Assembly (NCBI RefSeq): GCF_011039205.1
Contig: NZ_JAAKEL010000018.1
Coordinates: 1 to 63,914, forward strand
Direction: 5' to 3'
Length of the DNA stretch: 63,914 bases
DNA from: Dysgonomonas sp. ZJ279
GTDB lineage: Bacteria; Bacteroidota; Bacteroidia; Bacteroidales; Dysgonomonadaceae
The position numbers were made by a program, and so were the translations under genes. The notes under the pieces were generated by a model. That model was not told where the DNA came from. It made no database searches and saw nothing but the letters and a program-made list of their open reading frames with translations. Of this stretch, positions 41,213 through 57,002 are shown piece after piece. Each line of letters starts with the position of its first letter. Positions within the stretch are counted from its first letter, which is position 1.

Positions 41213-41944
41213 TTATTCCTTCCTCTCGGATTCCACTGTATAAACGAAACTGTCGGCACGATAATAACCAACATTCCATTCTACTGCCCGACCTCCCGGA
41301 TCGTAAACGAAACGTTTCCTTTTCAAGATAGGCTCGCCTTGTTTCAATCCTAATTTATCGGCAAGAAAGCGGTCGGCAAGCATAGCGCTCACCTGTTCTT
41401 TCGAGAGCTTGGCTATGACATTGTATTCTTTGAGTATATCATAAAGCATTCTCGAAAAATCCTCAGTTTCTTTTAATCCGATGCGAGGATTGAAATAAGA
41501 AACAAAGTAAACAAATGGATTATCCAGGCTACCTCTCAAACGTTCAAGCTTCATAACCTTAGTTTCACCAGTAATATGAAAAAAATTGCATAGATCTTCA
41601 TCAGGATGAATCCAGCTGACATGCAGATCGTAATTTTTCACCTCAAGACCCATCATCTTCATCTCCTGCGAAAAACTAAGCCAATTATTAGCATTAGAAG
41701 TAATAGCCGTATTGGCAACTACTGTTCCAACCCCCTTCTTTCTAATCAACAAACCATCATAGACCAATTTATTGATAGCCTGACGCAATGTACTTCGCGA
41801 AATGCCAAGCTGTTGAGACAGATCGACTTCGTTAGGAAGCATTTTTCCACTCTTATACTCGGGTTTCAAAATTTCCTTTCTTATCTGATTCTCAATCTGA
41901 ATATATAAAGGAACAGGGCTGTTGTAATCTAATACTATTTTCAT
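41213..41944 (-). CDS. GntR family regulator, HutC/UTRA type
   Basis: 243 residues. The N-terminal winged helix (about 5-75) shows PLYIQIENQIRKEIL, LPNEVDLSQQLGISRSTLRQ and GLLIRKKGVGTVV. A UTRA ligand-binding domain follows (LERLRGSLDNPFVYFVSYFN to the end). UTRA regulators sense sugars or sugar phosphates. It lies 97 bases after the GH92 lipoprotein gene on the same strand, so it is a likely regulator of the mannose/N-glycan genes; the effector may be mannose-6-phosphate or a related sugar phosphate (inference). Confidence 0.9.
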   Translation of the reverse strand: MKIVLDYNSPVPLYIQIENQIRKEILKPEYKSGKMLPNEVDLSQQLGISRSTLRQAINKLVYDGLLIRKKGVGTVVANTAITSNANNWLSFSQEMKMMGLEVKNYDLHVSWIHPDEDLCNFFHITGETKVMKLERLRGSLDNPFVYFVSYFNPRIGLKETEDFSRMLYDILKEYNVIAKLSKEQVSAMLADRFLADKLGLKQGEPILKRKRFVYDPGGRAVEWNVGYYRADSFVYTVESERKE

Positions 41945-42041: not shown

Positions 42042-44396
42042 TTATTTGTTTTTCACATACAACTTAGTCTTACCGGGTTCGGAGATAGAAGGAGCCACAG
42101 AATCATCCGCAGTACCCCATGATTCGTTTGGCTTATTGCCCAACACGAATTTAATCTCTGCTCCGTTTCTTATATCGTTATATGTGATATATGTTTTATT
42201 ATATTCTTTTCCATTAAGATACATCGCTTGGATATACACGTTTTCTTTACTGTAATTCTCAGTTGTCATTAGTACTTTATTACCGTTTTCCAACGTCATT
42301 TCTACTGATTCCAAGCCCGGCGATCCGATAGCATATATATTGCTTGACGGACATGTAGGATAGAAGCCCATCGAGTTGAAAATATACCAAGCCGACATTT
42401 GTCCGCAATCGTCATTACCACTCAACGATTCGGGAGTATTTCCGTATAAGTTATCTAATACATAACGAATCTTCTCCTGACCTTTCCACGGTTGTTTCAC
42501 GTAATTGTACAAATAAAGAATCTGATGACAAGGCTCATTACCATGCCAGTAAGCACCTATGCGCCCTTGAATATCGTGAGCACCCGGAATATCTTCGGGA
42601 AGCACCATCGTAAACATCGAATCTAAACGCTGTGTAAAAATCTGATTGCCACCCATTTCGTTGATGTATCCCTGAACATCTTGCGGCACATACCATGTAT
42701 ATTGATATGTAAATCCTTCGGTAATATCTCCCCAGCCATGTATCGATCCCGGTCCTGTGTAAGCAATCGGGTCGAATGGTGTACGCCAGTTGCCTTCAGA
42801 ATCGCGACCGCGCATAAATTTAGATTCGGGATCTATAATATTCTGATATGATAACGCACGATTCAGGAAATAATTATAATCATCTTCTTTTCCCAGTTTT
42901 TTAGCTGCCATGGCGATACAATAATCGTCGTAAGCATATTCCAAGGTTTTCGATACGGATTCAGGCTCTTTATCGAAAGGTACCCATCCTATTGTTCTAT
43001 ATTCGGGTAAACGGTCATAATTAGGATTCATGGCTGTCGTTTTCATTGCTTCGTAAGCACGCTCGTAGTTAAAGCCTTGTATATCTTTAACAATAGCATC
43101 AGCAATAACAGATACGGCATGGTAGCCAATCATGCACCATGTCTCATTTCCATAGAACGACCAGATAGGCAACATACTTTCCACACTTTGATCGTAATGT
43201 GCCAGCATCGAATTAATCATATCGGCATTACGAGACGGATTAATCAGATTAAGTAAAGGGTGATGAGCTCTATATGTATCCCAAAGAGAAAACACAGTAT
43301 AATTTGTAAAATTTTCAGAAGTATGAATATTTGAATCGTGACCTCTGTATTTTTTATCTAAATCTTCGTAAATAAACGGATGAAGCGAAGCATGGTAAAC
43401 AGATGTATAGAAAGTTTCCATTTGCTCTTTAGTGCCCTTCACCTTGAACTTACTCAGCTCTTTAGCCCATGCCAGTTCTCCTTTTTCTTTTAGTGTACCG
43501 AAGTTTTCATTTTTCAGTTCTTTCATATTCCCGAAAGCCCCCGCTGTTCCAGTAGACGAAATAGCGACTTTAACTTCTATTTCTGCACCATCTTTAGCAT
43601 CGAAATCCATCCATGCCATCAGTTTAGTGCCATAAGCTACACGGTCGCTACGGAAACGTTTTGTATTATAAATTACAGGTTTGCCATCTTGCATAATACC
43701 TGAATTGAGGAACGGTTTAGAGAAAGTCGCTGCAAAATAGACATAGCGCTCCGGACCCCAACCATTCACCAGTTTGAAACCGCAAATAGTCGAATCATTT
43801 TCTATTCTCACTTGAGACCATGTTGTTTTAAACATCAACACATGCTCAAGATCAATCATCACAAAAGCACTGTCTGTCTTAGGGAATGTAAATTTAAAGA
43901 TACCGGAGTGTTCACCTGATGTCATTTCGGCTTTTACGCCATAGTCCAATAAGTCTACACCATAGTAGTTAGGTGATGCCCATTCTTGATCGTGGCTATA
44001 ACGCGAACGATAGCCATCGTCGGGTTTATCATGAGTTCCCGGCTCAAATTTCTTAGTACCTGTTCCCGGTATGAATAAGAAGTCACCAAGATCGGGAATA
44101 CCTGTTCCACTCAAATGAGTAAGACTGAATCCCAATATTGTCATGTGATTATATTTATAACCCGATGCTGCATCGTAGTAATCTCTATCTGTATCGGGAC
44201 TGATCTGTATGCCGCCAAAAGGTAATTGAGTACCCGGATATACGTTACCAAAGCCCGATGTCCCTACAAAGGGATTAACATAGGCATTGAGTGACAAGTC
44301 AGCCGACTTTTCCTCAAAAACTTCCTTGTTTTTACAAGAAAAAAAGAGTAGTGTAGTTAAAACTAAAAATGCAATTTGGAGTAACCTGTTGTTCAT
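42042..44396 (-). CDS. GH92 family alpha-mannosidase lipoprotein
   Basis: 784 residues. A lipoprotein signal (FLVLTTLLFFSC) puts Cys near residue 21. The GH92 N-terminal beta domain shows NPFVGTSGFGNVYPGTQLPF and the catalytic alpha-barrel has SLWDTYRAHHPLLNL, HGNEPCHQILYLYNY (Glu near residue 618, the usual general acid) and GNDDCGQMSAWYIFNSMG (near 662, catalytic base region). GH92 enzymes are Ca2+-dependent exo-alpha-mannosidases that trim N-glycans or yeast mannan. It is separated from the MFS gene upstream by a terminator and followed by GntR. Confidence 0.94.
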   Translation of the reverse strand: MNNRLLQIAFLVLTTLLFFSCKNKEVFEEKSADLSLNAYVNPFVGTSGFGNVYPGTQLPFGGIQISPDTDRDYYDAASGYKYNHMTILGFSLTHLSGTGIPDLGDFLFIPGTGTKKFEPGTHDKPDDGYRSRYSHDQEWASPNYYGVDLLDYGVKAEMTSGEHSGIFKFTFPKTDSAFVMIDLEHVLMFKTTWSQVRIENDSTICGFKLVNGWGPERYVYFAATFSKPFLNSGIMQDGKPVIYNTKRFRSDRVAYGTKLMAWMDFDAKDGAEIEVKVAISSTGTAGAFGNMKELKNENFGTLKEKGELAWAKELSKFKVKGTKEQMETFYTSVYHASLHPFIYEDLDKKYRGHDSNIHTSENFTNYTVFSLWDTYRAHHPLLNLINPSRNADMINSMLAHYDQSVESMLPIWSFYGNETWCMIGYHAVSVIADAIVKDIQGFNYERAYEAMKTTAMNPNYDRLPEYRTIGWVPFDKEPESVSKTLEYAYDDYCIAMAAKKLGKEDDYNYFLNRALSYQNIIDPESKFMRGRDSEGNWRTPFDPIAYTGPGSIHGWGDITEGFTYQYTWYVPQDVQGYINEMGGNQIFTQRLDSMFTMVLPEDIPGAHDIQGRIGAYWHGNEPCHQILYLYNYVKQPWKGQEKIRYVLDNLYGNTPESLSGNDDCGQMSAWYIFNSMGFYPTCPSSNIYAIGSPGLESVEMTLENGNKVLMTTENYSKENVYIQAMYLNGKEYNKTYITYNDIRNGAEIKFVLGNKPNESWGTADDSVAPSISEPGKTKLYVKNK

Positions 44397-44520: not shown

Positions 44521-45693
44521 TTACCCTTTAACCTTAATCTTTATTCCATATGCACAATAAAGCAAGTAGATCATACATATTGTGATAATTAGCAACGAAC
44601 CTCTCTGGCTACCGAATGCATCTGCACAAATACCCATAATAGGTGGGATAATTGCGCCACCGGCCACACCGGTAATCATCAATCCCGATACCTCATTCGC
44701 TTTCTTTGGATAATGCTGCATAGCCATCGAATATATAACAGCAAATATACTGGAAGATGCAAATGCGATGAGACAGACCATAGCCAGTATGAATGGTTGT
44801 GAATCGGCGACAAACAATCCGCACATTGCAAACAAAGCAATTATCATATTTATACGAAAGTATGCTTTCTCAGGTACTTTACTTAATAAGAATGCGCCAA
44901 TAAGTGTACCTATGGTACGTGCTGCAAAATACCAACTTGTGCCATAACCCGCTGCTTCTTTTTCCATACCTAAACGTTCGATCAAAAGTTTGGGTGTTGC
45001 AATATTCATTCCTACATCGAGACCAACGATCGCAAGTATTCCAAAAAACAGAAGTAAAATCTTTTTATCGCCAAGCAATGCCAACGTCTGACCAAGTGTA
45101 GATGGTTTCTCCTCCGATTTTTCTTCATCTATCTTTATAAAGAATAACCATACAGTCGAAACCAAGGTTACCCCGGCAAAGATAGGGAACATCATCTCCC
45201 AACTACCCAAATGTAAAGAGCACGCTCCCGCAATAATAGGCCCGAGAAAAGAAGAAATTGCTTTGATAAACTGTCCGGCAGTGAGGCTGCTCGTCAATTT
45301 ATCTCCTTTTACCACATTCGTCAATAACGGATTCAGCGATACCTGAAGTATTGTATTACCTATCCCCAACAGAGCAAATGCGAGATAGCAAGTCACTTCA
45401 CTAAAATCTATTACAGGAAGAATCATTCCCATAAAAGTAAACAGCATACTGATCAGCACCGTATTCTTACGCCCTATCTTATTCGTTAACAATGCCGTAG
45501 GAACTGACAATATAAAGAACCAGATAAATACCATCGAAGGTAAAAAGCCTGCTTGCGTTTCCGTCCATCCGAAGTGTTCCTTCGCGTAAGTTACCGAGAC
45601 ACCGACCAAGTCGCAGAACCCCATGATGAAGAATCCGAAAAGAACAGGTAGTACTTTAGCGTACGATATTTTCTGTGTTTGTTGTATTTCCAT
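44521..45693 (-). CDS. MFS sugar transporter
   Basis: 390 residues with about twelve hydrophobic segments. It resembles the FucP-like/sugar:H+ symporter branch of the major facilitator superfamily (LPVLFGFFIMGFCDLVGVS at the start, then TNKIGRKNTVLIS, the loop 2-3 motif). It lies 28 bases after the GH92 gene (45722) in the same operon, which points to mannose or short manno-oligosaccharides as the substrate. Confidence 0.88.
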   Translation of the reverse strand: MEIQQTQKISYAKVLPVLFGFFIMGFCDLVGVSVTYAKEHFGWTETQAGFLPSMVFIWFFILSVPTALLTNKIGRKNTVLISMLFTFMGMILPVIDFSEVTCYLAFALLGIGNTILQVSLNPLLTNVVKGDKLTSSLTAGQFIKAISSFLGPIIAGACSLHLGSWEMMFPIFAGVTLVSTVWLFFIKIDEEKSEEKPSTLGQTLALLGDKKILLLFFGILAIVGLDVGMNIATPKLLIERLGMEKEAAGYGTSWYFAARTIGTLIGAFLLSKVPEKAYFRINMIIALFAMCGLFVADSQPFILAMVCLIAFASSSIFAVIYSMAMQHYPKKANEVSGLMITGVAGGAIIPPIMGICADAFGSQRGSLLIITICMIYLLYCAYGIKIKVKG

Positions 45694-45721: not shown

Positions 45722-48700
45722 TTATTTAGCTATTCCCCAATTCTTATTCGGCTCTGCTCCCATTTGTAATTCGAGAATACCACCATTCAATAAATCCTTT
45801 GCAGGAAATTTGAATGAATTTAATGTCTCGCCATTCAGTTTGGCAGATTGGATATACTTATTGTTGCGTGAAGCATCTTTTGCTTTTATTACAAACTGTT
45901 TTCCACGTCCAAATCTTTCACCCAGATCAATTACTGTTTCTTCGAATAATGGGCTGGCTATTTCATATACAGGCTCTACGTTTGTACCTCCATCTGTTTG
46001 GAACAACCCTATTGCAGCCATTATAAACCATGCACTCATCTGACCTTGATCTTCGTCTCCCAAATAAGCATTTGCAAAATCATGCCCATAGTAGCGATCC
46101 ATTATAGAACGGCTCCATCGCTGTGTTTGCCAAGGTTGATCCACCCAGTTAAACAAGAATGCAAAATGCATAGATTGCTGATTACCTTGCACTACCGGAA
46201 AATCCCAATATTGGTCGCCAGGTGCATTGTAGCGCCAAGGCTCACTTGCTTCGAATCCCCAAGTCAAACGATCGATAAAGTTTTTCTTACCAATCATATC
46301 GGCCAATGCAGGAACATCTTGCGGCACAAAGAATGTCAACTGCCACGCATTACCTTCTACATAATGATGATTGGCTCCCGATTTGAACGGATCGAAATCT
46401 TTCACCCAATTGCCATCACTATTTCGTAAGCGAGCATAGCCTGTTTCAGGATCGATCGCATTACGCCACCAATTACCTCTATCGGCAAATACTTTATAAT
46501 CGGTATCTTTGCCCAATGCTTTCGCCAATTGTGAAACCGTCCAGTCGTCGAACGAATATTCCAGTGTATTAGAAAAACGTCCTTTGTCGGCAGGCACAAA
46601 TTTATATTTAAGATAGACTTCCAAATCTCTGTTTCCGGCAAATCCACCGCCTACGCTTTGAGGTAACGTTGTTTGCATTTTCTTCACTGCTTCGAACATC
46701 TTCTCTGCATCATAATTGCGGATTCCCATTTGATATGTACTAACCAGCAATGGGATTTCATGCTCACCTACCATTACAGGAATATACTCCATACCCGCAG
46801 GACCTTTAGCCAACCAGCCATTAGCATCGTACATCGCCAATTGAGATTTAACCCAACGGGACGACCATTCAGGGGTTACCAGATTCCAAAGTTGATTCAG
46901 ATTCCAGAATGTATTCCAGAATGCATCACAACCTAAAGCTACAGCATCGGGATCAGTAAACTTTTGTATTTTCTCAGTAGCATCAACCCATCTGCCATCC
47001 ACATCGCTAAATGTATTGCGGCAATATGCACGGTACATATTTGTGTAGAAACGCATCTTTTCGCGTTGATCGTTACTTTTTACCGATATTCTAGTCAGAA
47101 GATCATTCCATACATTACGCTGATTATTACGGACTGCTTCGAAATCCCATCCGAACGGATCGGCAACCTCTTCTTTTAGATTCTTTCTCGCTCCATCTAA
47201 ATCGACATACGAAATAGCTGTGCGTGATTGGACAACAGGATTGGTATGTGTATCAAATTCTACATATGAACCTACACGCTCAGGATTTTGAGCTATTATT
47301 GGTTGGTTTTCGGTTAGATTATCGTTAATCCATCCTCCGAACTTCTTAATATCCTGATCGAATTCGATTACAAAAAATACAATATAATCCTGATCGGCAT
47401 CTTCAGACCAAACATTTTTAGACTGTTGTTTACTAAATCCTTCTACTTTACGAGGTCCGACCTGACGAATTTCTGCTTCCAGAATATTGAAATTGTATTC
47501 GCATGGTATTTGCAGATCAATCATTATACGAGAATCGGTAGCTTTAGGATACGTATAGCGTTGAAAACTACAACGGTTTGTAGCGGTGAGTTCTGCTTTT
47601 ATTTTAGAATCGATCAGATCGACTTTATAATAACCTACAGGTGCTTCTTCGGTTGTTTTGTCGAATGCCGAACGGTAACCATCGTTTTTCACGAGGCTCG
47701 ACTGATCTCCTATCTTTGTTTTCAATGGTCCGTTAGTAGGCATTATACCTAATCCGCCCATTGTCCACTCATGAATATGGCTGAATGTACCAATGCTTTC
47801 GAATGAAGGATCATACCCTGCTTGCCATCCCGCTTTTTGATTGTCAGGACTTAGCTTCACCATACTAAATGGCATCCATGGACCGGGAGCGATCATCCAA
47901 CGTGAATGCGCTGTACCCATACGTGTATCTATATAATCGGCAGGAGTTATTGCTCTTTGAGGAGCTCGCTGAACGGTACCACTTTCGATAGGGCGTTTAT
48001 CTATCAAAACAACGTATTTGCTATCTGTTTTCGATTTAACAGCAGGCATAGGAGCTTCAAGAATGTAGCGCCCTTTCTCCAGTTTTTGTTCTAGAATACT
48101 TTTACCATCCAATAGCACACTTACAGTAGGGTTTCCTTCAAGATGTTCTATATCGATCAATAACGGTTGAGCTTTTAAGTCTGCTAATTCATAATCAGCA
48201 GTTTTTATACTGCGGATATAAGCCGAGTTATCCACTGCTTGCACTTTTGCATTAGCAGGTCCTTCCAAACGTATATCATCGAATGTCAGCCAAGAACCTT
48301 CTAAATTCGTTAGTGTGATTTCATTTCCGCCTTTACGAATAAGATCAGCAGGAAGCGGAATTTCGATCGTATGATTCAGATGTTTATCCGATTTTCCAAT
48401 CAAAGCCGCTTCACCGTTTCCTTTAGGCAATGCATATTTCCACGATTTACCATTTACCCCTACTCTAAACAATGGCGGTTTTTGGTCACTTGTATCAAGA
48501 ATATCAATAACCAGTTTCCAATCTCCTTTCGTTGCATTCTCCATTCTAAATAGAATATTTAATACATGGGTACGAATACCGGCTGTACCACTTGTTCCAC
48601 CCCATTTGTCGTCGGGTCCGGGTAATACGTAAGGCCAGTCTTTAGCCGGAGTCGATTTACCTATAAGGAAAAAACGATCTTCCCAACCGAAATCGTGAGC

Positions 48701-48850
48701 CAGAAAGTCTTTATAGGCATCGGGCGATAAGGTAAATTCGTTCGAACTACCGTCTTTCACTCCCATTTGCCAAACAACATTCGATTTCTGTGCATAGCAC
48801 ATCTGTATGGTAAATGCGAAAAGAAGTAAACTAAGTTTTATGATTTTCAT
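45722..48850 (-). CDS. GH92 family glycosidase with N-terminal accessory domain and Gln at the general-acid position
   Basis: 1042 residues. It has a signal peptide (LSLLLFAFTIQMCYA), then a beta-sandwich domain (about 22-215, VVWQMGVKDGS to GSWLTFDDIRLEG) that is shared with the GH38 protein next door. The GH92 core starts near residue 300 (ITPADYIDTRMGTAHS). GDEDQGQMSAWFIMAAIG (near 936) corresponds to the base region, but the acid motif HGNEP of the sister enzyme reads QGNQQSMH (near 890). So Glu is replaced by Gln, a change reported for GH92 members that act on mannosyl-phosphate. It lies in the same operon as GH38 and MFS. Confidence 0.92.
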   Translation of the reverse strand: MKIIKLSLLLFAFTIQMCYAQKSNVVWQMGVKDGSSNEFTLSPDAYKDFLAHDFGWEDRFFLIGKSTPAKDWPYVLPGPDDKWGGTSGTAGIRTHVLNILFRMENATKGDWKLVIDILDTSDQKPPLFRVGVNGKSWKYALPKGNGEAALIGKSDKHLNHTIEIPLPADLIRKGGNEITLTNLEGSWLTFDDIRLEGPANAKVQAVDNSAYIRSIKTADYELADLKAQPLLIDIEHLEGNPTVSVLLDGKSILEQKLEKGRYILEAPMPAVKSKTDSKYVVLIDKRPIESGTVQRAPQRAITPADYIDTRMGTAHSRWMIAPGPWMPFSMVKLSPDNQKAGWQAGYDPSFESIGTFSHIHEWTMGGLGIMPTNGPLKTKIGDQSSLVKNDGYRSAFDKTTEEAPVGYYKVDLIDSKIKAELTATNRCSFQRYTYPKATDSRIMIDLQIPCEYNFNILEAEIRQVGPRKVEGFSKQQSKNVWSEDADQDYIVFFVIEFDQDIKKFGGWINDNLTENQPIIAQNPERVGSYVEFDTHTNPVVQSRTAISYVDLDGARKNLKEEVADPFGWDFEAVRNNQRNVWNDLLTRISVKSNDQREKMRFYTNMYRAYCRNTFSDVDGRWVDATEKIQKFTDPDAVALGCDAFWNTFWNLNQLWNLVTPEWSSRWVKSQLAMYDANGWLAKGPAGMEYIPVMVGEHEIPLLVSTYQMGIRNYDAEKMFEAVKKMQTTLPQSVGGGFAGNRDLEVYLKYKFVPADKGRFSNTLEYSFDDWTVSQLAKALGKDTDYKVFADRGNWWRNAIDPETGYARLRNSDGNWVKDFDPFKSGANHHYVEGNAWQLTFFVPQDVPALADMIGKKNFIDRLTWGFEASEPWRYNAPGDQYWDFPVVQGNQQSMHFAFLFNWVDQPWQTQRWSRSIMDRYYGHDFANAYLGDEDQGQMSAWFIMAAIGLFQTDGGTNVEPVYEIASPLFEETVIDLGERFGRGKQFVIKAKDASRNNKYIQSAKLNGETLNSFKFPAKDLLNGGILELQMGAEPNKNWGIAK

Positions 48851-48888: not shown

Positions 48889-51800
48889 TTACAGTTTCAA
48901 TCTGATAAATTTATTTTCAAATGGTTTGAATTTAAATTTTTTCAACCCGCTTTGTTCAATTTCTTCTATTGCATTAACAATAGAAAATGTCAGCGGATTT
49001 CCATTGCGATCCAAGATACTAAAATTACTTTCTACTCCATCCAGCTCCCTAACATTTATCAGAATATATCCATCCTCGACAGAAGGTGTAGAAGATGTCA
49101 TCAAGAAGTTTTCTTTGTTGATATGGAATGCAGAATAGTCTGCCGCCTTACCATTATCTTTACCCACAGGCATCACTCGTGCATATAGTGGAACACGGGA
49201 GCTCCAGCCAAACTTAGTCGCTTTGGTATTCGATGTATCGTCAGAAGATGTCAAGTAATAACTCCAGCGGAATTCGCCTTCTTGCGATGCACGGAAATTT
49301 GTAGTCCAATAGTTATTCATCACATACGAGAATACATGCGGTTTTTCATATTCTTTTTTATATTGAAACGGTCCGGTTAAAATAGAACCTAATTGAACCA
49401 GTGGAACAATATCGCTACCTACTATAAACTGCGCTTTATCATTTCGGGCAGTCACAAAGTTCTGAACAGTGTTCCAACTTGTAGACGTTCCAGTCAATTG
49501 ATTTTCGCCAGCAGTCAAGATGCCACCCTGCACATCAAATGCCAATTTAGAATTATCCAGTTTGAATGGGAAAGCAACATAAATAGCTGTAGGATCTGTC
49601 TCGGGTAGTCTTTTCATTGCATAAGCCAACTCGATACGTTTTGTATTATGGAACAGACGAACTTCAATTTTCACTCCGAATTTTTCTTCACAGCATCCCG
49701 ATTTACCACTAATATTAATTGTTTGATAAATAGCTCCGTTTGCTCCCATTGTTACGTCACAATTAGTTAACCCATTACGTTTGTAATCAGTCACTACATA
49801 GCGCTCCATCTGCTGACGGTTATCGAGTTTCTCGTATATAAATTCACCTAAGCCCCATTCGGAATCAGTATCAACCATTTCCTTATTAAGCTGCTTATCA
49901 TACAGGCTTACGATAGCTCCTTTATCAGGATCAACAACCAATTTATAAAATTCATTTTCCAATACACCTATTGCAATATCTTCTATAACAGATGGTTTTT
50001 TAGCTGCAGATAACTTAGGTGCTACAGTTTTATCTTCTACAATCTCATACGTTTTATAGCCCATCGCAGGAATATTTTCAGCATAAATAGCATAATATGT
50101 TCCTTCGTTACGCGAACGAATAGGTTGCGTTTTTAGAGCCTTTCCGTCTTTATCTATCAATTTAAATGGTTTATCGCGAGGAATAACTTCATGATCGATA
50201 TACATAACAATCATCTCCGAACGCACCCAGCTAAGTGTATTGAAGAACGTAATAGTAGGGTTTTTACCTCTCATCAAATCACCTTGAAGTATACCTCCTG
50301 ATGTTTCATAAAGCATCTGCGTATTTTTCAAAGCATCCCATACGTAAGCCGATTTTTCGGCCCATTGCACCTGACTATTTTCAGCCATCGGATCGCTAAT
50401 ACTTTCCGCTGCACCAAATGTATGCTCATCATAGAACAGTATATTTTCGTGAATGCGACGAATCTTCTCATGTGTTTGGGCAGGCAATAATAATCCTTTA
50501 AGACGAGCCATGGACAATAAGCCTTCGACTGCGATTAAATCAGAATGAGTTTTGCGGGATGCACCTGTTTCTCTGGCTGCCGAACCGAAACCATCCGTCC
50601 ACCAGTCGGGATATGCAACACGTTGAGTTTCTATTTTATCTTTATAATTTTCTGTTACATAATCCATAAACTCATGTGCTAATGAACTTCTAAGCTTTGG
50701 ATATGCGTATTTTTCATTCCAATCACGGATCAATCGGCTTTCGACCATCGAAGGAGGCGAATTGTCTGTAAAGTATCCCGAATATTGAACACCGACCGCA
50801 TCGAACGGGTAATCACGATTATCCAGATTCTGCAAATAATAAAATACACGCGGAGCGATTTTGTCCGCATCGCCATGCTCTATACCAAAAAAATTACCTG
50901 TATTGTAGTGATCGGCACGATAGGTATAGATCGGTTTTCCCGATGGTGATTCCCAACGGAATACAGTTGGTTTATCGAATGGGATCAATGCCCTGTGACC
51001 ATGCTCTCCCATCCATACATATTTCACACCAAGATCGGGAAGATAATCAGCCAGACACCATGCAATACCGTTCACATCGTTTTGCATAGCCGTATATACA
51101 GGAATATCGCGTTTCTTAAATTCACGAATAGGCTCTAGGAATGTTTTGAAAGAGTTCTCATCAACAATCTCCGACATATTGAAGAACATTGCCGCAACCT
51201 CAATCTGTCCGTTATCTATATATTTCTTTAGCTTATTAATCTGTTCCTGCGGACGATTATGCAAATATTCACGCACAGCCCAAGCGGCTTCGCATGTCCA
51301 ACGGAATTTAGCATCATCGGGATAATTCTCTGTAAGTTCGCAATACTCGATAGCATAATCTATATAACGGAGATGCTCCGTTAATATTTCTGTTTGAGGC
51401 TTGGTATAACCTATATCGGTATGTGTATGCTGAACAAGATACATTGTCCACTTCTTAATAGGTGCTAGTTTAATTGTGGTAGCATCTACAACTTTCGATT
51501 TAGATACAATTTCTGCCAACACATTTTTATCAGCAGTTGCTTCCGGAACTGTCGTCTCTAATGTATTTACACCTTTATTCAGTTTGTAGTTAGTAGTAGG
51601 GATACCCTCCATTTTGACACTTACAGTCTGAGGTTTATTATCCCAATTAACTACATAGAGTTTCAACGGTTGACGGAGTTCTTTATTCTTACCATATATC
51701 AAAGCCGGAATAGCTGTTGTACCAAAAAGAGTAACACTCTTCGTTGGTTTAGCTAAAACGACTGATTTATCGGCTGACAATTCAATATTATCGAAAGCAA

Positions 51801-52347
51801 GCCAACTACCGTATTCGTTACGGATAACGAGCGTATTATCGCCTTGCTTCAAGACATTAGCAGGGATAGCGACTTCTACAAACAAGTCTTTTGAATTGAT
51901 CTTCTTATCAAACAAGAAGCCATTATTATTACCTTTGGGTGTCTGAATCTTTACCGAATAACCATTTACATTTACCTCTAACAACGGTGCCAATGTATGG
52001 GTTTCTAATATATTAATCCGAAGCTTTGCTGTAGTATTTTCCTGAACTTCTCCGAGACCAAAGCGAATAAAAACCTGATTGGTGTTTCCAGCCCACGAAT
52101 CGTTAAGACCCGGAAGAAAAAACGGAAAATCCGAATCCTTATTTGTTCCCACTTCATAGATTATTGCTCCATCTTTGTAGGTGGTTGCAAAATCTCTATA
52201 CTTAGCATCATACAGCGCAAATTCTTGTGCGCTCTTATCATTTTTCCCTATCTGCCAGACAGAACGATAAGCATTTTGTCCCTTAACCTCGTTTACGAAA
52301 ACGAGGCTAAGGAACAGAATAATACAAAAACTCATTTTATTTCTCAT
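48889..52347 (-). CDS. GH38 family alpha-mannosidase with N-terminal accessory domain
   Basis: 1152 residues from ATG 52347 (MRNKMSFC, signal peptide to VKGQ); a TTG at 52371 is open but precedes the signal. The N-terminal accessory domain (about 25-205, SVWQIGKNDKS to GSWLAFDNIEL) resembles that of the GH92 at 45722. The GH38 catalytic part starts KKWTMYLVQHTHTDIGYT, where HTHTD carries the zinc ligands, and continues with MQNDVNGIAWCLADYL (nucleophile region) and GEHGHRALIPF. GH38 enzymes hydrolyse alpha-mannosides with retention. Its gap to GH92 is 38 bases. Confidence 0.93.
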   Translation of the reverse strand: MRNKMSFCIILFLSLVFVNEVKGQNAYRSVWQIGKNDKSAQEFALYDAKYRDFATTYKDGAIIYEVGTNKDSDFPFFLPGLNDSWAGNTNQVFIRFGLGEVQENTTAKLRINILETHTLAPLLEVNVNGYSVKIQTPKGNNNGFLFDKKINSKDLFVEVAIPANVLKQGDNTLVIRNEYGSWLAFDNIELSADKSVVLAKPTKSVTLFGTTAIPALIYGKNKELRQPLKLYVVNWDNKPQTVSVKMEGIPTTNYKLNKGVNTLETTVPEATADKNVLAEIVSKSKVVDATTIKLAPIKKWTMYLVQHTHTDIGYTKPQTEILTEHLRYIDYAIEYCELTENYPDDAKFRWTCEAAWAVREYLHNRPQEQINKLKKYIDNGQIEVAAMFFNMSEIVDENSFKTFLEPIREFKKRDIPVYTAMQNDVNGIAWCLADYLPDLGVKYVWMGEHGHRALIPFDKPTVFRWESPSGKPIYTYRADHYNTGNFFGIEHGDADKIAPRVFYYLQNLDNRDYPFDAVGVQYSGYFTDNSPPSMVESRLIRDWNEKYAYPKLRSSLAHEFMDYVTENYKDKIETQRVAYPDWWTDGFGSAARETGASRKTHSDLIAVEGLLSMARLKGLLLPAQTHEKIRRIHENILFYDEHTFGAAESISDPMAENSQVQWAEKSAYVWDALKNTQMLYETSGGILQGDLMRGKNPTITFFNTLSWVRSEMIVMYIDHEVIPRDKPFKLIDKDGKALKTQPIRSRNEGTYYAIYAENIPAMGYKTYEIVEDKTVAPKLSAAKKPSVIEDIAIGVLENEFYKLVVDPDKGAIVSLYDKQLNKEMVDTDSEWGLGEFIYEKLDNRQQMERYVVTDYKRNGLTNCDVTMGANGAIYQTINISGKSGCCEEKFGVKIEVRLFHNTKRIELAYAMKRLPETDPTAIYVAFPFKLDNSKLAFDVQGGILTAGENQLTGTSTSWNTVQNFVTARNDKAQFIVGSDIVPLVQLGSILTGPFQYKKEYEKPHVFSYVMNNYWTTNFRASQEGEFRWSYYLTSSDDTSNTKATKFGWSSRVPLYARVMPVGKDNGKAADYSAFHINKENFLMTSSTPSVEDGYILINVRELDGVESNFSILDRNGNPLTFSIVNAIEEIEQSGLKKFKFKPFENKFIRLKL

Positions 52348-52440
52348 AGTTTTTGATTTAAGGCCAAACAATTAAGGTTGGAAAATCCAATTAATTGCAA
52401 GCAAATAATATAATATTAAAAACACTTGTATTACGAATAT

Positions 52441-55128
52441 TTATCGGACCAAAGACATAACCATCATGGCTTTCTCTTTTCCATTATTCTTTATTCTATA
52501 GCTTTCTGCAGCAGCAGGGATCACAAATGTTTCGGCATAATTGAAATTATGAACCATTCCATTTTTAGTCTCTATTGTTACAGAATTACCCTCCACCATC
52601 ATCCATACATGACATTTATTGTTATTTTCCATCGTAATTTCTTCATCAAAAGAATATCGATATATATCGTAAAAATGCTCTGCATGTGTAGGCAGCTTCT
52701 CCAGTGTGTAATCTTGTGTTTGCTGTATTATGGTTGGGTGCGATATTAATTCTTCTTCTACTAATTTACCCTTACGCTCGAAATTCACATTCTTCATGCC
52801 ATGATCGATATTGATAGGACGTGGACGACCATCGAGGTCTAAACGTACCCAATCATACATCTTGAAGGTAAATATATATGGTGCACTGCTTATTTCGAGC
52901 ACAAAGTTATCTTTTCCCGATGCATGGATTGTTCCGTTAGGGATAAGATATAAGTCATGCTTCTTCGCATCAAATTTCTGAACATATTTCTCGATATCAA
53001 TCTCCTTAGCTGTTGCTTCACTCGTCTTAAGCGCATTATGAAATTCTTCGGGATCGATATCCTCTTGGAATCCAAGATAAACATGCGGCTCATTTTTGCA
53101 ATCAAGAATATAATACGTTTCATCCTGAGTGAAAGGCATACCAAATTCTTCTTTTATATACTCGGGTCTTGGATGGCATTGAACAGATAGATTTCCGCCA
53201 TCGAATGTATCGAGGAAATCGAATCTGATAGGAAAGTCATATTTAAATCTCTCGGCACAGTCACCAAGAACGTCTTTGTAACTATTGAACATAAGGAAGT
53301 CGAATGAAACTTCGAGACGGTAACCGTCACTATCGAATAGTAAGCCATTTTCGAGCACCATCAGTTCGAAAGACCATGCCAGATTAGGAACATCTTTATT
53401 CAATCCTTCGATTTTCTCCTTCATTAATGATCCGCCCCATGCTCCCGGCTCGAACCAAGGACGAACGCGGAACAGATTTTGCCCCATAGATGATAATCCC
53501 TTTCGCAAATCGTCGCCCGACATATATAAATAATCATCCGGACGTTGCTCATCGACAATCAAGTCGATAGATGGCAAAACACTACACTTATGATGATTAA
53601 GTACAATCCAATCTGCAAAATAGAAGCGTTTGTACATTATTCTATTGTCTTCCGTTTTATCTGCACCGAGATTGAATGCCTTTCCTGCCCTCATTCTGAA
53701 TTGTAATTCATTCTTAGGAAGGTCTACATAAATCAAAGGCCCATTCCATCCTGCGAGTGTGGCTCCGCAACCAATAACAATGTTAATATCTGAATCCTTA
53801 TCAGGTTTTATCTCTTTTAGCTTATCTGCATCAAACCAATCGATCAGACTTTTATCTGTTACCTTACCAAAGATAGAATCCTCTTCGCCCATGTAAGGTT
53901 TCAGCATTTCTGCGATATATTCCGGGCTGTGCATCGCAGCCTCAACATGAAACCATGATGCTTTTTTTCCTGCTTCACGGAGCTCTGCATCTATATTTTT
54001 CACAAAATCATTCCAAAATACACCGACATAGCCATCTATTACCACAGTTTTATGTAGCATTATCCAAGATGCAAGGCCTTCACTACCTTGTTTTATCTTC
54101 CCGTTTCCAATCGGAAATCCCGGATATATATCATATGTACCTTGTGTTGTAGGTGTAGCCTTTTCAGGCATCAAAAATTGTGTTGTCTTTCTTTTCACGT
54201 CCGCTTTCTCTTTTATAATATTATCTGTTTGTTGTTTTATAGCCATGGCTGCACCAACAATTGGCGCTTTATCTTCAAGCTGAGCTATTTTAATTTCAAT
54301 ATGTTTAAATCCTTTATTCGCTAAGTTTGTTTTCAATTTATCCAGAAACAGATCTTCTGATTTAGCAATATTCCCTCCAATGATAAGTACATCAGGTTGA
54401 AAATCGGAAAACCAAGGAGTCATAAAATCGGCTAAATTATTAGCAAATTCATCGAATATAGCGAGTGCATGTTTATCATTATTACGGGCAGATACTGCAA
54501 CCTCCTTTACACCTTTCACTTCTATTCCTGACTTCTGATTATAAGCAGAAGCAAACCAACGAGTCGAAAAGCAATCGTCTGCTATTTTATCCCCAAATGG
54601 TATATTATATAAATATCCATTCTCGGGAATACCATTACCTGCAACTGTTTGAGGAATACCATCTATTAAAAATGTAGAACCAAAACCTGTACCTAAAGCT
54701 AACAATATTGTTTTCTTACTATTCTTGGCAGCACCCGAAAAATATTCACCCAAAGCAAAACCTGTAGCATCGTTGTTGAATATTATCGGTTTACTTTCAT
54801 CGGGGAAGACCTTCCTGAAAGCTTGCTTTACATTAAGACCAAATATTGATTCAAATTTCTGAACCCCTTCTATTTTAGAAATACCATTTTGATAATCGAA
54901 TGGACCGGGAATAGCAACTCCGATACCGAGCACTGCTTCTTCGGACACTGTATTTAGCATATCCTGTATAGTTGATTGCCAACCGGAAATAATTTCATCG
55001 GCTGTGCCTTTCGAATCTATTCTACGATCATATACATTATCATCCGCAATCTGTCCTGTTATGCTATCAACAAATGCTGCAGAAATATGTGATCCTCCAA
55101 TATCAAGTCCCAGATAATATTTTCTCAT
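52441..55128 (-). CDS. Three-part fusion: ROK sugar kinase, unknown middle domain, class I mannose-6-phosphate isomerase
   Basis: 895 residues from ATG 55128 (MRKYYLGLDIGGSH); eight codons upstream are open but lack a start in context. Residues 1-305 are a ROK kinase: phosphate loop LGLDIGGSHISAAF, catalytic Asp in NNDATGFALGEYFSG (near 120), LALGTGFGSTFLIDG. The usual ROK cysteine cluster (CxCGxxGC) is absent. Residues 330-600 are a domain I cannot name (IVIGCGATLAGWNGPLIYVD). Residues 600-895 are a phosphomannose isomerase with metal ligands in LSVQCHPRPEY, CKNEPH and PNGTIHASGKD. Together they could convert mannose to fructose-6-phosphate. Confidence 0.9.
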   Translation of the reverse strand: MRKYYLGLDIGGSHISAAFVDSITGQIADDNVYDRRIDSKGTADEIISGWQSTIQDMLNTVSEEAVLGIGVAIPGPFDYQNGISKIEGVQKFESIFGLNVKQAFRKVFPDESKPIIFNNDATGFALGEYFSGAAKNSKKTILLALGTGFGSTFLIDGIPQTVAGNGIPENGYLYNIPFGDKIADDCFSTRWFASAYNQKSGIEVKGVKEVAVSARNNDKHALAIFDEFANNLADFMTPWFSDFQPDVLIIGGNIAKSEDLFLDKLKTNLANKGFKHIEIKIAQLEDKAPIVGAAMAIKQQTDNIIKEKADVKRKTTQFLMPEKATPTTQGTYDIYPGFPIGNGKIKQGSEGLASWIMLHKTVVIDGYVGVFWNDFVKNIDAELREAGKKASWFHVEAAMHSPEYIAEMLKPYMGEEDSIFGKVTDKSLIDWFDADKLKEIKPDKDSDINIVIGCGATLAGWNGPLIYVDLPKNELQFRMRAGKAFNLGADKTEDNRIMYKRFYFADWIVLNHHKCSVLPSIDLIVDEQRPDDYLYMSGDDLRKGLSSMGQNLFRVRPWFEPGAWGGSLMKEKIEGLNKDVPNLAWSFELMVLENGLLFDSDGYRLEVSFDFLMFNSYKDVLGDCAERFKYDFPIRFDFLDTFDGGNLSVQCHPRPEYIKEEFGMPFTQDETYYILDCKNEPHVYLGFQEDIDPEEFHNALKTSEATAKEIDIEKYVQKFDAKKHDLYLIPNGTIHASGKDNFVLEISSAPYIFTFKMYDWVRLDLDGRPRPINIDHGMKNVNFERKGKLVEEELISHPTIIQQTQDYTLEKLPTHAEHFYDIYRYSFDEEITMENNNKCHVWMMVEGNSVTIETKNGMVHNFNYAETFVIPAAAESYRIKNNGKEKAMMVMSLVR

Positions 55129-55156
55129 TTCAATAACTAATAAAATACACAATTTA

Positions 55157-55166
55157 TATGTACATA
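55157..55166. promoter_or_regulatory. Palindrome in the kinase-isomerase promoter region
   Basis: TATGTACATA is a perfect 10-bp palindrome 29-38 bases upstream of the ROK-isomerase ATG. It lies between a minus-strand TTTG (55182 region) and a weak -7-like TATAAATT, so it could be an operator, possibly for the GntR protein. Confidence 0.3.
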
Positions 55167-55254
55167 CATATATACATTAACAAAGAAAGTAATATTATTC
55201 GAAATACCCAAAATATAATTGCATTTTTTAATTAACAAATCAGATCAAAACAAA

Positions 55255-55288
55255 ATAGCCTTGGGTTAGCAGATCAACCCAAGGCTAT
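55255..55288 (-). terminator. Terminator of the PNGase F gene
   Basis: ATAGCCTTGGGTT (55255-55267) and AACCCAAGGCTAT (55276-55288) form a perfect 13-bp stem with an 8-nt loop, followed on the minus strand by a T-rich tract. Confidence 0.9.
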
Positions 55289-55319: not shown

Positions 55320-57002
55320 TCATTTGGCACGATCTCCGACCAAAACTCCGGAAGTGCACCAGTAACTAATGCTCGAACCTGATGGATCTCCCACAGGAAT
55401 TGCAACTCGAACTTGATGTTCACCTGCTTTCACATTTCCCAAATGAATGAAAACAGGACAACTCACAGCTCCGGGACACCAACCAGAACGGCTCAAGTCG
55501 GAAGATGATAAACCATTAGCAAAATTACCGGATGCCGGACTTAGACCACGATAACTTGCGCAATCTTCGCGCCATGGTGTATAAGCCATAGTACGTGTAC
55601 CATCCATAAATATCTCGTTTAGTTTAGGATTGAACTCATCGCCACCACTCCAGCCACCATGCCCTGTCGAGATATAGCGGATATAAGCTTTCTCTAAATC
55701 GACATCGGTTCTGAAATTAACTGTAAGAGAATCATCCCTAAACATCCCGCCGGGATATGCCTGACCTCCCATCTCCAATATATTAACGGTTGTAAAAAGA
55801 GGATAAATCTCTTTCTCTGCTTCTCCTTTGCCTATAGGATAATATTTTATTTTTAAAGACACATTATGTCCGTTTTCCGAATAATTACCAATCCATGCAC
55901 CAACCCATACTTCACCTTTCAATTGCTTGGCATAATCCGTAACTTCTTGTTTAAAAACAATTGAATCGGGCCAATTAAAATCGGCAACTTCTATATGATT
56001 AAAACCTCTTACACCGAATGAGGTATAAAACCGCATTAATTCGAGAGGAGGAAAATAATCCGATGTAGCAACCATTCCTTCATAGGTATCACCATGCTTA
56101 TCTGCATACTTAGGCAATGCGTCTTTCCCTTTCAGCAAACCATCTAAAAATGATTGTTTGCGATCAGTCGGAATCACGAATACTGTACCCGTACGGTCAT
56201 AAGCATCACCTTCGGAATGTTGTGCCAGTTCTGTAAGGATGGAGTAGGCAGAATTATCTTCGGGTAATTTTACCTTTTTCAATACAATAGACCCATTGGC
56301 AAATTGCATTACTTCTGTATCATTTAATACCTGAAGTTTAGGAATATCTCTAAAATAAATACTTTGGTTATTAAACACATCAACCGATATAACCCCACTT
56401 TGCTGTATCTTATAATTGAATGCAGATGCTTTCAGGTCTTCCCCTTCTAATACAGGCAGCAAGCTTATTTCATTTTTAAGTAATTCTACCTTAGATGCTT
56501 TTTCAATACTTTGACCATTACGAACGACCTTTAGCACCACACCGTCGGGAATAGCAACCCCCGGTTGCATAGAGCCTTTAACCCCTAATTCGGTAGTATA
56601 CCATACTTCCAATGTATTCGAATTGATAATGGTCTTTACTTTTTTACAATTATAGCCTGCAATCACTTCGGTTTCAGACTGGGGTGTCAACTTATCATTC
56701 AAAACAAAGGTGCGGGTTGTAAATATCTCCTCACCATTCAGTTGGGCGACCTTAATCTCTTTATTCAAATTGAAATCGAGATAAGCCTGCTGAACAGGCG
56801 TATTTGCATTCCTGCGTCCCCCTTGAGTTAATATTTTCGCAACATTATTAGATATTTCCATCACAGTATGAAAGGAGGTATCTATCTGATTGTTGAAACT
56901 TCTCTCATAAGTAATGCGTACAGTTTTAAAATCTTTTTTAAATACTGCCTGCATATACGACACAAGGCAGAATAGTAGAGCCAAAAATATACTTCTTTTC
57001 AT
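55320..57002 (-). CDS. PNGase F-type peptide-N-glycosidase with extra N-terminal domain
   Basis: 560 residues. PNGase F hydrolyses the bond between Asn and the first GlcNAc of N-glycans, releasing the whole glycan. After a signal peptide (IFLALLFCLVSYMQA) comes an N-terminal domain of about 230 residues with GLPGLI-like marks (IAGYNCKKVKTI, then VWYTTELGV). The PNGase part shows FGVRGFNHIEVADF, YISTGHGGWSGGDEFNP (Glu near 455, matching an active-site Glu), PWREDCASYRGLSPASGNF and NGLSSSDLSRSGWCPG. The catalytic part is closely like flavobacterial PNGase F. It lies 4 bases after the oxidoreductase gene. Confidence 0.93.
   Translation of the reverse strand: MKRSIFLALLFCLVSYMQAVFKKDFKTVRITYERSFNNQIDTSFHTVMEISNNVAKILTQGGRRNANTPVQQAYLDFNLNKEIKVAQLNGEEIFTTRTFVLNDKLTPQSETEVIAGYNCKKVKTIINSNTLEVWYTTELGVKGSMQPGVAIPDGVVLKVVRNGQSIEKASKVELLKNEISLLPVLEGEDLKASAFNYKIQQSGVISVDVFNNQSIYFRDIPKLQVLNDTEVMQFANGSIVLKKVKLPEDNSAYSILTELAQHSEGDAYDRTGTVFVIPTDRKQSFLDGLLKGKDALPKYADKHGDTYEGMVATSDYFPPLELMRFYTSFGVRGFNHIEVADFNWPDSIVFKQEVTDYAKQLKGEVWVGAWIGNYSENGHNVSLKIKYYPIGKGEAEKEIYPLFTTVNILEMGGQAYPGGMFRDDSLTVNFRTDVDLEKAYIRYISTGHGGWSGGDEFNPKLNEIFMDGTRTMAYTPWREDCASYRGLSPASGNFANGLSSSDLSRSGWCPGAVSCPVFIHLGNVKAGEHQVRVAIPVGDPSGSSISYWCTSGVLVGDRAK

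Follow-up and report, generated by a model that had tools for sequence, protein, structure and literature searches.

Human GNE (UDP-GlcNAc 2-epimerase/ManNAc kinase) is a known case of a ROK kinase sharing one chain with the enzyme of an adjacent step; unlike in the protein described here, its kinase is C-terminal, the partner is an unrelated epimerase and the pathway is biosynthetic. In Bacillus subtilis, a kinase and an isomerase of the two types treated here are encoded by gmuE and gmuF in a mannoside operon, but as two polypeptides, and GmuE, encoded beside the isomerase GmuF, is called a fructokinase (PMC11669640). For B. thetaiotaomicron, PMC3878776 describes a predicted regulon of the GntR regulator ManR comprising mannose uptake, conversion to fructose-6-phosphate and alpha-mannosidases. 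Streptomyces tendae has a GH38/GH76/GH125 locus in which a long isomerase and a ROK kinase are encoded side by side as separate polypeptides, the isomerase gene coming first, the reverse of the order reported below; the S. tendae kinase is of the same type as ours, judged by eye from the translation. Hymenobacter sp. DG25B has adjacent genes for a ROK protein and a 'class I mannose-6-phosphate isomerase', again two polypeptides.

Public databases already contain the fused form itself, though with an incomplete name. WP_144076932.1, encoded on the complete plasmid p1 of Flammeovirga kamogawensis, carries the same three domains as our protein in one chain (48% identity) and is annotated only as 'ROK family protein', the isomerase half being missing from the name; at least one database record thus names the kinase half alone of such a fusion protein. 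Among the matches listed from the open PMC literature (titles and abstract beginnings; subscription papers and preprints lie outside this scope), neither the fusion nor its middle domain is named.

Domain architecture of the fused protein

The gene lies in a window of 63,914 nucleotides, the whole stretch of Dysgonomonas sp. ZJ279 DNA that was analysed, and consists of a single uninterrupted open reading frame of 895 codons on the minus strand (52441-55128). Three domains follow one another in the chain: a ROK-family sugar kinase (residues 1-305; 54214..55128), a middle domain (residues 306-547; 53488..54213) and a class I phosphomannose isomerase (residues 548-895 plus stop; 52441..53487), all read from the minus strand. 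An AF2 model places them in one confident arrangement (pTM 0.92). An earlier note on this DNA had proposed a fusion of two enzymes; the kinase and the isomerase ends stand, in one intact frame and with the catalytic residues of both kept, while the two-domain picture does not, as the third domain, with a degenerate kinase fold, was overlooked. The protein is most likely a bifunctional enzyme leading from mannose to fructose-6-phosphate, with an inactive kinase-fold spacer.

The kinase domain scores 101.2 bits with Pfam ROK (gathering threshold 22.9), and the kinase domain of human GNE (2yhw and 3eo3) matches it in structure. D9, G11 and G12 of the DxGG ATP loop and the catalytic pair N119-D120 are kept in 26/26 kinase rows, which bears out the Asp predicted near position 120, and so is the GTGxG motif (residues 146-150). 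H14, P74-G75-P76, Y79 and K91 are equally invariant and may mark this kinase subfamily.

The C-terminal domain has the class I phosphomannose isomerase fold. Gln, His, Glu and His are the metal ligands known from enterobacterial ManA; the corresponding Q650, H652, E670 and H735, the ligands the earlier note had pointed to, are present in 38/38 rows, as is R762. With the NCBIfam manA model the domain reaches 28.5 bits, below the equivalog cut-off of 116.2, and by this model it is classed as a divergent relative, not as a manA equivalog. Both catalytic sets, kinase and isomerase, are intact in all 11 fused rows.

Gene neighbourhood and proposed function

The genes downstream of the fusion, all on the minus strand, begin with a GH38 alpha-mannosidase (48889..52371; Pfam Glyco_hydro_38N, 4.9e-38), separated from it by 69 bases by the listed start. 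There follow a GH92 alpha-mannosidase (45722..48850; Glyco_hydro_92, 1.3e-135), an MFS transporter that is a candidate mannose importer (44521..45693; MFS_1, 5.4e-41), a second GH92 alpha-mannosidase (42042..44396; 5.3e-169) and a GntR/UTRA regulator (41213..41944; GntR 7.9e-18, UTRA 7.7e-26), homologues of which are present in many related loci. The predicted position upstream of mannosidases is thus correct. Directly upstream of the fusion, on the same strand, is a PNGase F-like gene with N-glycanase_N and _C domains (55320-57002); a Gfo/Idh-type gene also lies upstream in the window. The mannosidases, the transporter, the regulator and the PNGase F-like gene fit the use of alpha-mannosides and N-glycans. 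In gene content the regulator, transporter and mannosidases recall the regulon of ManR (BT2103), and the Flammeovirga locus similarly contains GntR, fusion, MFS and GH92 genes. In G179, G120, G251 and G526, too, a gene for a sugar porter adjoins the fused gene.

From the domain content, the catalytic residues, the gene context and the recurrence of the architecture we infer a cytoplasmic bifunctional enzyme that probably serves the catabolism of alpha-mannosides, with N-glycans the probable source. Mannose would be released by the GH38 and GH92 enzymes outside the cytoplasm and would enter through the MFS protein. The ROK domain would then convert ATP and mannose to mannose-6-phosphate with Asp120 as base, and the metal-dependent isomerase would turn this into fructose-6-phosphate for glycolysis. 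The middle domain, presumably inherited from the long-isomerase family, would serve with its P-loop kinase fold as a structural bridge. Fusion would provide the two consecutive enzymes in equal amounts and in one place, which does not imply true channelling.

The fused gene would not be the only route for mannose in this genome, since a second, unfused pair of ROK kinase and long isomerase, overlapping by 17 bases, lies on another contig (C47, 9433-12154 of the fetched stretch), and a further short isomerase is present. The long isomerase of that pair shares the middle and isomerase domains with our protein at 38% identity.

Distribution and history of the fusion

The earlier note had called for a database search for the same domain order. 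Full-length fused homologues were recovered from 10 other genomes at 43-64% identity, the Flammeovirga plasmid being additional. All sample genomes, designated by G numbers, belong to the phylum of the window genome. Searches with the full protein found the fusion in 2/25 genomes of the genus (our own and G005, 64% identity), and the order and phylum samples gave 5/393 and 5/395, our own included in each; in these two samples a limit of E <= 1e-115 was applied and two candidates were scored per genome, so that weaker or third copies are uncounted. A metagenome-assembled genome labelled Prevotellaceae bacterium Cd354_bin100 (L029, JAIRMK010000123.1) also has the fusion (60% identity). It came from a contig scan with exact peptide patterns, which yielded one relative from nine matches, the low yield probably being due to the exactness of the patterns. 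The fused gene of L029 groups with the genus of the window despite its Prevotellaceae label, a possible transfer or a question of labelling. Persicobacter sp. JZB09, covering the full query, was rejected as a fused form because its match consists of two overlapping reading frames.

Matches were found in 38 other genomes (22 from the order and 16 from the phylum sample), of which 8 are fused. The kinase gene adjoins the isomerase gene in 8, is separated from it by a transporter gene in 9 and lies elsewhere in the fetched stretch in 3; a contig edge cuts off the kinase side in 1, and in 9 none was seen near the isomerase (blastp, E 1e-4, in stretches of 4.6-20 kb limited by contigs). With so many split relatives a strict need for coupling is unlikely, and the strict coupling that the earlier note had suggested is not borne out. 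No kinase remnants were found by tblastn (E <= 0.01) in nine stretches beside isomerases, namely those of 7/9 kinase-less loci (G198 and G561 left out), G557 and a 60-base edge of G757. In G336 (L093, 10932-13668) the intervening transporter gene is split into two parts separated by about 1.5 kb and may be interrupted or have received an insertion.

In G396 the junction is an in-frame TAA directly followed by ATG, while its nearest relative, G120, has a continuous frame. G021, a close relative and a third genome of the genus to be noted here, is 82% complete and assembled in 530 contigs. On one of them, 5.8 kb long (C244, L032), the isomerase is preserved, but upstream of it only some twelve residues from the beginning of a kinase are left; the kinase is either deleted or misassembled.

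Quick trees, without bootstrap and with uneven sampling, were calculated for the middle plus isomerase domains (43 rows) and for the kinase (34 rows); more distant long isomerases were left out except for our own paralogue. On the isomerase tree the fused state needs 7 changes without G757, or 8 if G757 is counted as not fused, and the starred branches force 5. On the kinase tree it needs 4, with 2 forced by starred branches. On both trees, then, the state appears to have switched repeatedly. Clustering of the fused label is only weak on the isomerase tree, where 45/500 shuffles gave a value as low, and strong on the kinase tree (0/500). On the isomerase tree the AU test rejected a single clade of the 11 fused rows (p 8.6e-46, 11 versus 31 rows), with G021 included as well (p 2.2e-5); such a clade of fused rows was likewise rejected on the kinase tree (p 0.001, 11 versus 23 rows). 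A fused clade with the split or kinase-less G021, G396, G290 and G198 inside was not rejected (p 0.108), these four having been chosen after the tree was seen. The fused forms may accordingly stem from several gains or from a single gain followed by losses.

Such switching also bears on whether the fusion has a function of its own. A stop codon may simply have been lost between adjacent in-frame genes and the product kept by drift, which would be compatible with two real activities. The junction of G396 set against its fused relative, and the several shifts on the trees, make this a plausible account of the fusion, short of a probable one, as the fused forms have persisted across 43-64% identity with catalytic sets intact in 11/11.

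Substrate of the kinase domain

The proposal that the kinase acts on mannose draws on gene context. The zinc motif CxCGxxGC, which the Hymenobacter ROK protein carries, is found in 0/26 kinase rows. This motif is common in ROK kinases yet does not define the family, and it is likewise missing from the printed alignments of 5nck and 6q26, two of the solved kinases that come closest in the profile comparison. Its absence weakens the claim on substrate, while the assignment to ROK by sequence and fold is unaffected. In ROK kinases the sugar-contact loop is usually of the GExGH type, with Glu and His touching the sugar; here the loop, at about residues 168-177, is altered and varies between rows. 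In the printed alignments of 6q26 and 4htl, too, Tyr replaces the loop His. Because of this change mannose as substrate rests on context, and without the zinc motif and with a variable loop the sugar could be another.

The kinase might therefore act mainly on another hexose, such as fructose or glucose, or on several, with the isomerase equilibrating mannose-6-phosphate and fructose-6-phosphate in a general entry enzyme for hexoses. Besides the altered loop, this would agree with the PDB profile comparison, in which entries for N-acetylmannosamine kinase, beta-glucoside kinase and glucokinase match best. A homologue of the window-type mannosidases was also not found in the fetched stretch of 5/11 fused loci (G179, G120, G251, G142 and L029, the last two on contigs below 6 kb); a GH2 gene is present in the G120 locus instead. 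Against it stand the alpha-mannosidases of the window and, overall, of 6/11 fused loci (window, G005, G526, G783, G542 and G626), those of the Flammeovirga locus and those beside the S. tendae pair, and despite the fructokinase name given to GmuE beside GmuF (PMC11669640) we consider a main substrate other than mannose improbable.

The middle domain

The middle domain comprises a linker, then an arm with the sequence RKTTQFLMP, and a P-loop kinase fold that is degenerate. It belongs to long isomerases whether these are fused to a kinase or split from it; we take GmuF to lack it. The window protein gave no Pfam and no PDB sequence match over this region. Pfam searches over 38 members returned 15 scattered families, each in 1/38 (best E 0.022), a nucleoside/nucleotide kinase model matched in 1/38 (E 1.8e-4), and middle-domain sequences gave nothing against the PDB up to E 5. 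The predicted fold is that of the pantothenate, uridine and phosphoribulokinases (PanK/URK/PRK). The Walker A motif GxxxxGK[ST] is present in 0/38 rows, and the domain is not classed as an active kinase on its sequence; other motifs are strongly conserved despite this loss. In the model the domain is most likely a structural bridge that has lost the nucleotide-binding loop. Long isomerases of several bacterial groups thus seem to carry a kinase-fold domain that is degenerate and matched no Pfam family in this analysis. Matches were also seen among Streptomyces, Deinococcus, Listeria and Photobacterium records.

A more active part for this domain, docking or allosteric, would make the fusion a device of mechanical coupling or channelling, in line with the confident three-domain arrangement of the AF2 model and with motifs conserved although Walker A is gone. 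Channelling by fusion is possible and compatible with the bifunctional enzyme proposed above, but with just 8/38 relatives fused and 9 without a kinase seen near the isomerase we regard such coupling as unlikely. In one specific form, to which we give slightly more credit while still thinking it doubtful, a repurposed pseudokinase would recognise the ROK kinase. In split systems it would dock the kinase onto the isomerase, and in fused ones it would orient both active sites and might also sense a nucleotide or a sugar phosphate; by these means mannose-6-phosphate would be passed on to the isomerase or stay at a low level. If this were true, repeated fusion would follow from a pre-existing complex. 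Since these two consecutive enzymes occur in nature both joined and separate, the effect of fusion on flux and on mannose-6-phosphate build-up is directly testable.

That an error of assembly or gene calling joined two genes, the refutation the earlier note had allowed for, finds no supporting point and has next to no probability left, being refuted by the full-length intact homologues in independent genomes, among them that on the complete annotated Flammeovirga plasmid.

Candidate regulatory elements

The stretch separating the PNGase F-like gene from the fusion gene contains a hairpin resembling an intrinsic terminator (55255..55288, minus strand), in which a run of T comes after a stem of 14 pairs. 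Terminator-like sites number 7 in the region against 10.3 expected, and this one stands out by its place and stem length only. A promoter scan was uninformative (46 sites, 57.9 expected). Upstream of the fusion start is the near-palindrome TATATGTATGTACATATA (55155..55172), a candidate operator for the GntR regulator. With up to three mismatches its pattern has this sole site in the window, read on both strands, against 0.16 expected, a figure that is no test as the pattern was derived from the site itself. A resembling sequence lies 5' of the fused gene in L029, and a looser likeness is seen in G005.
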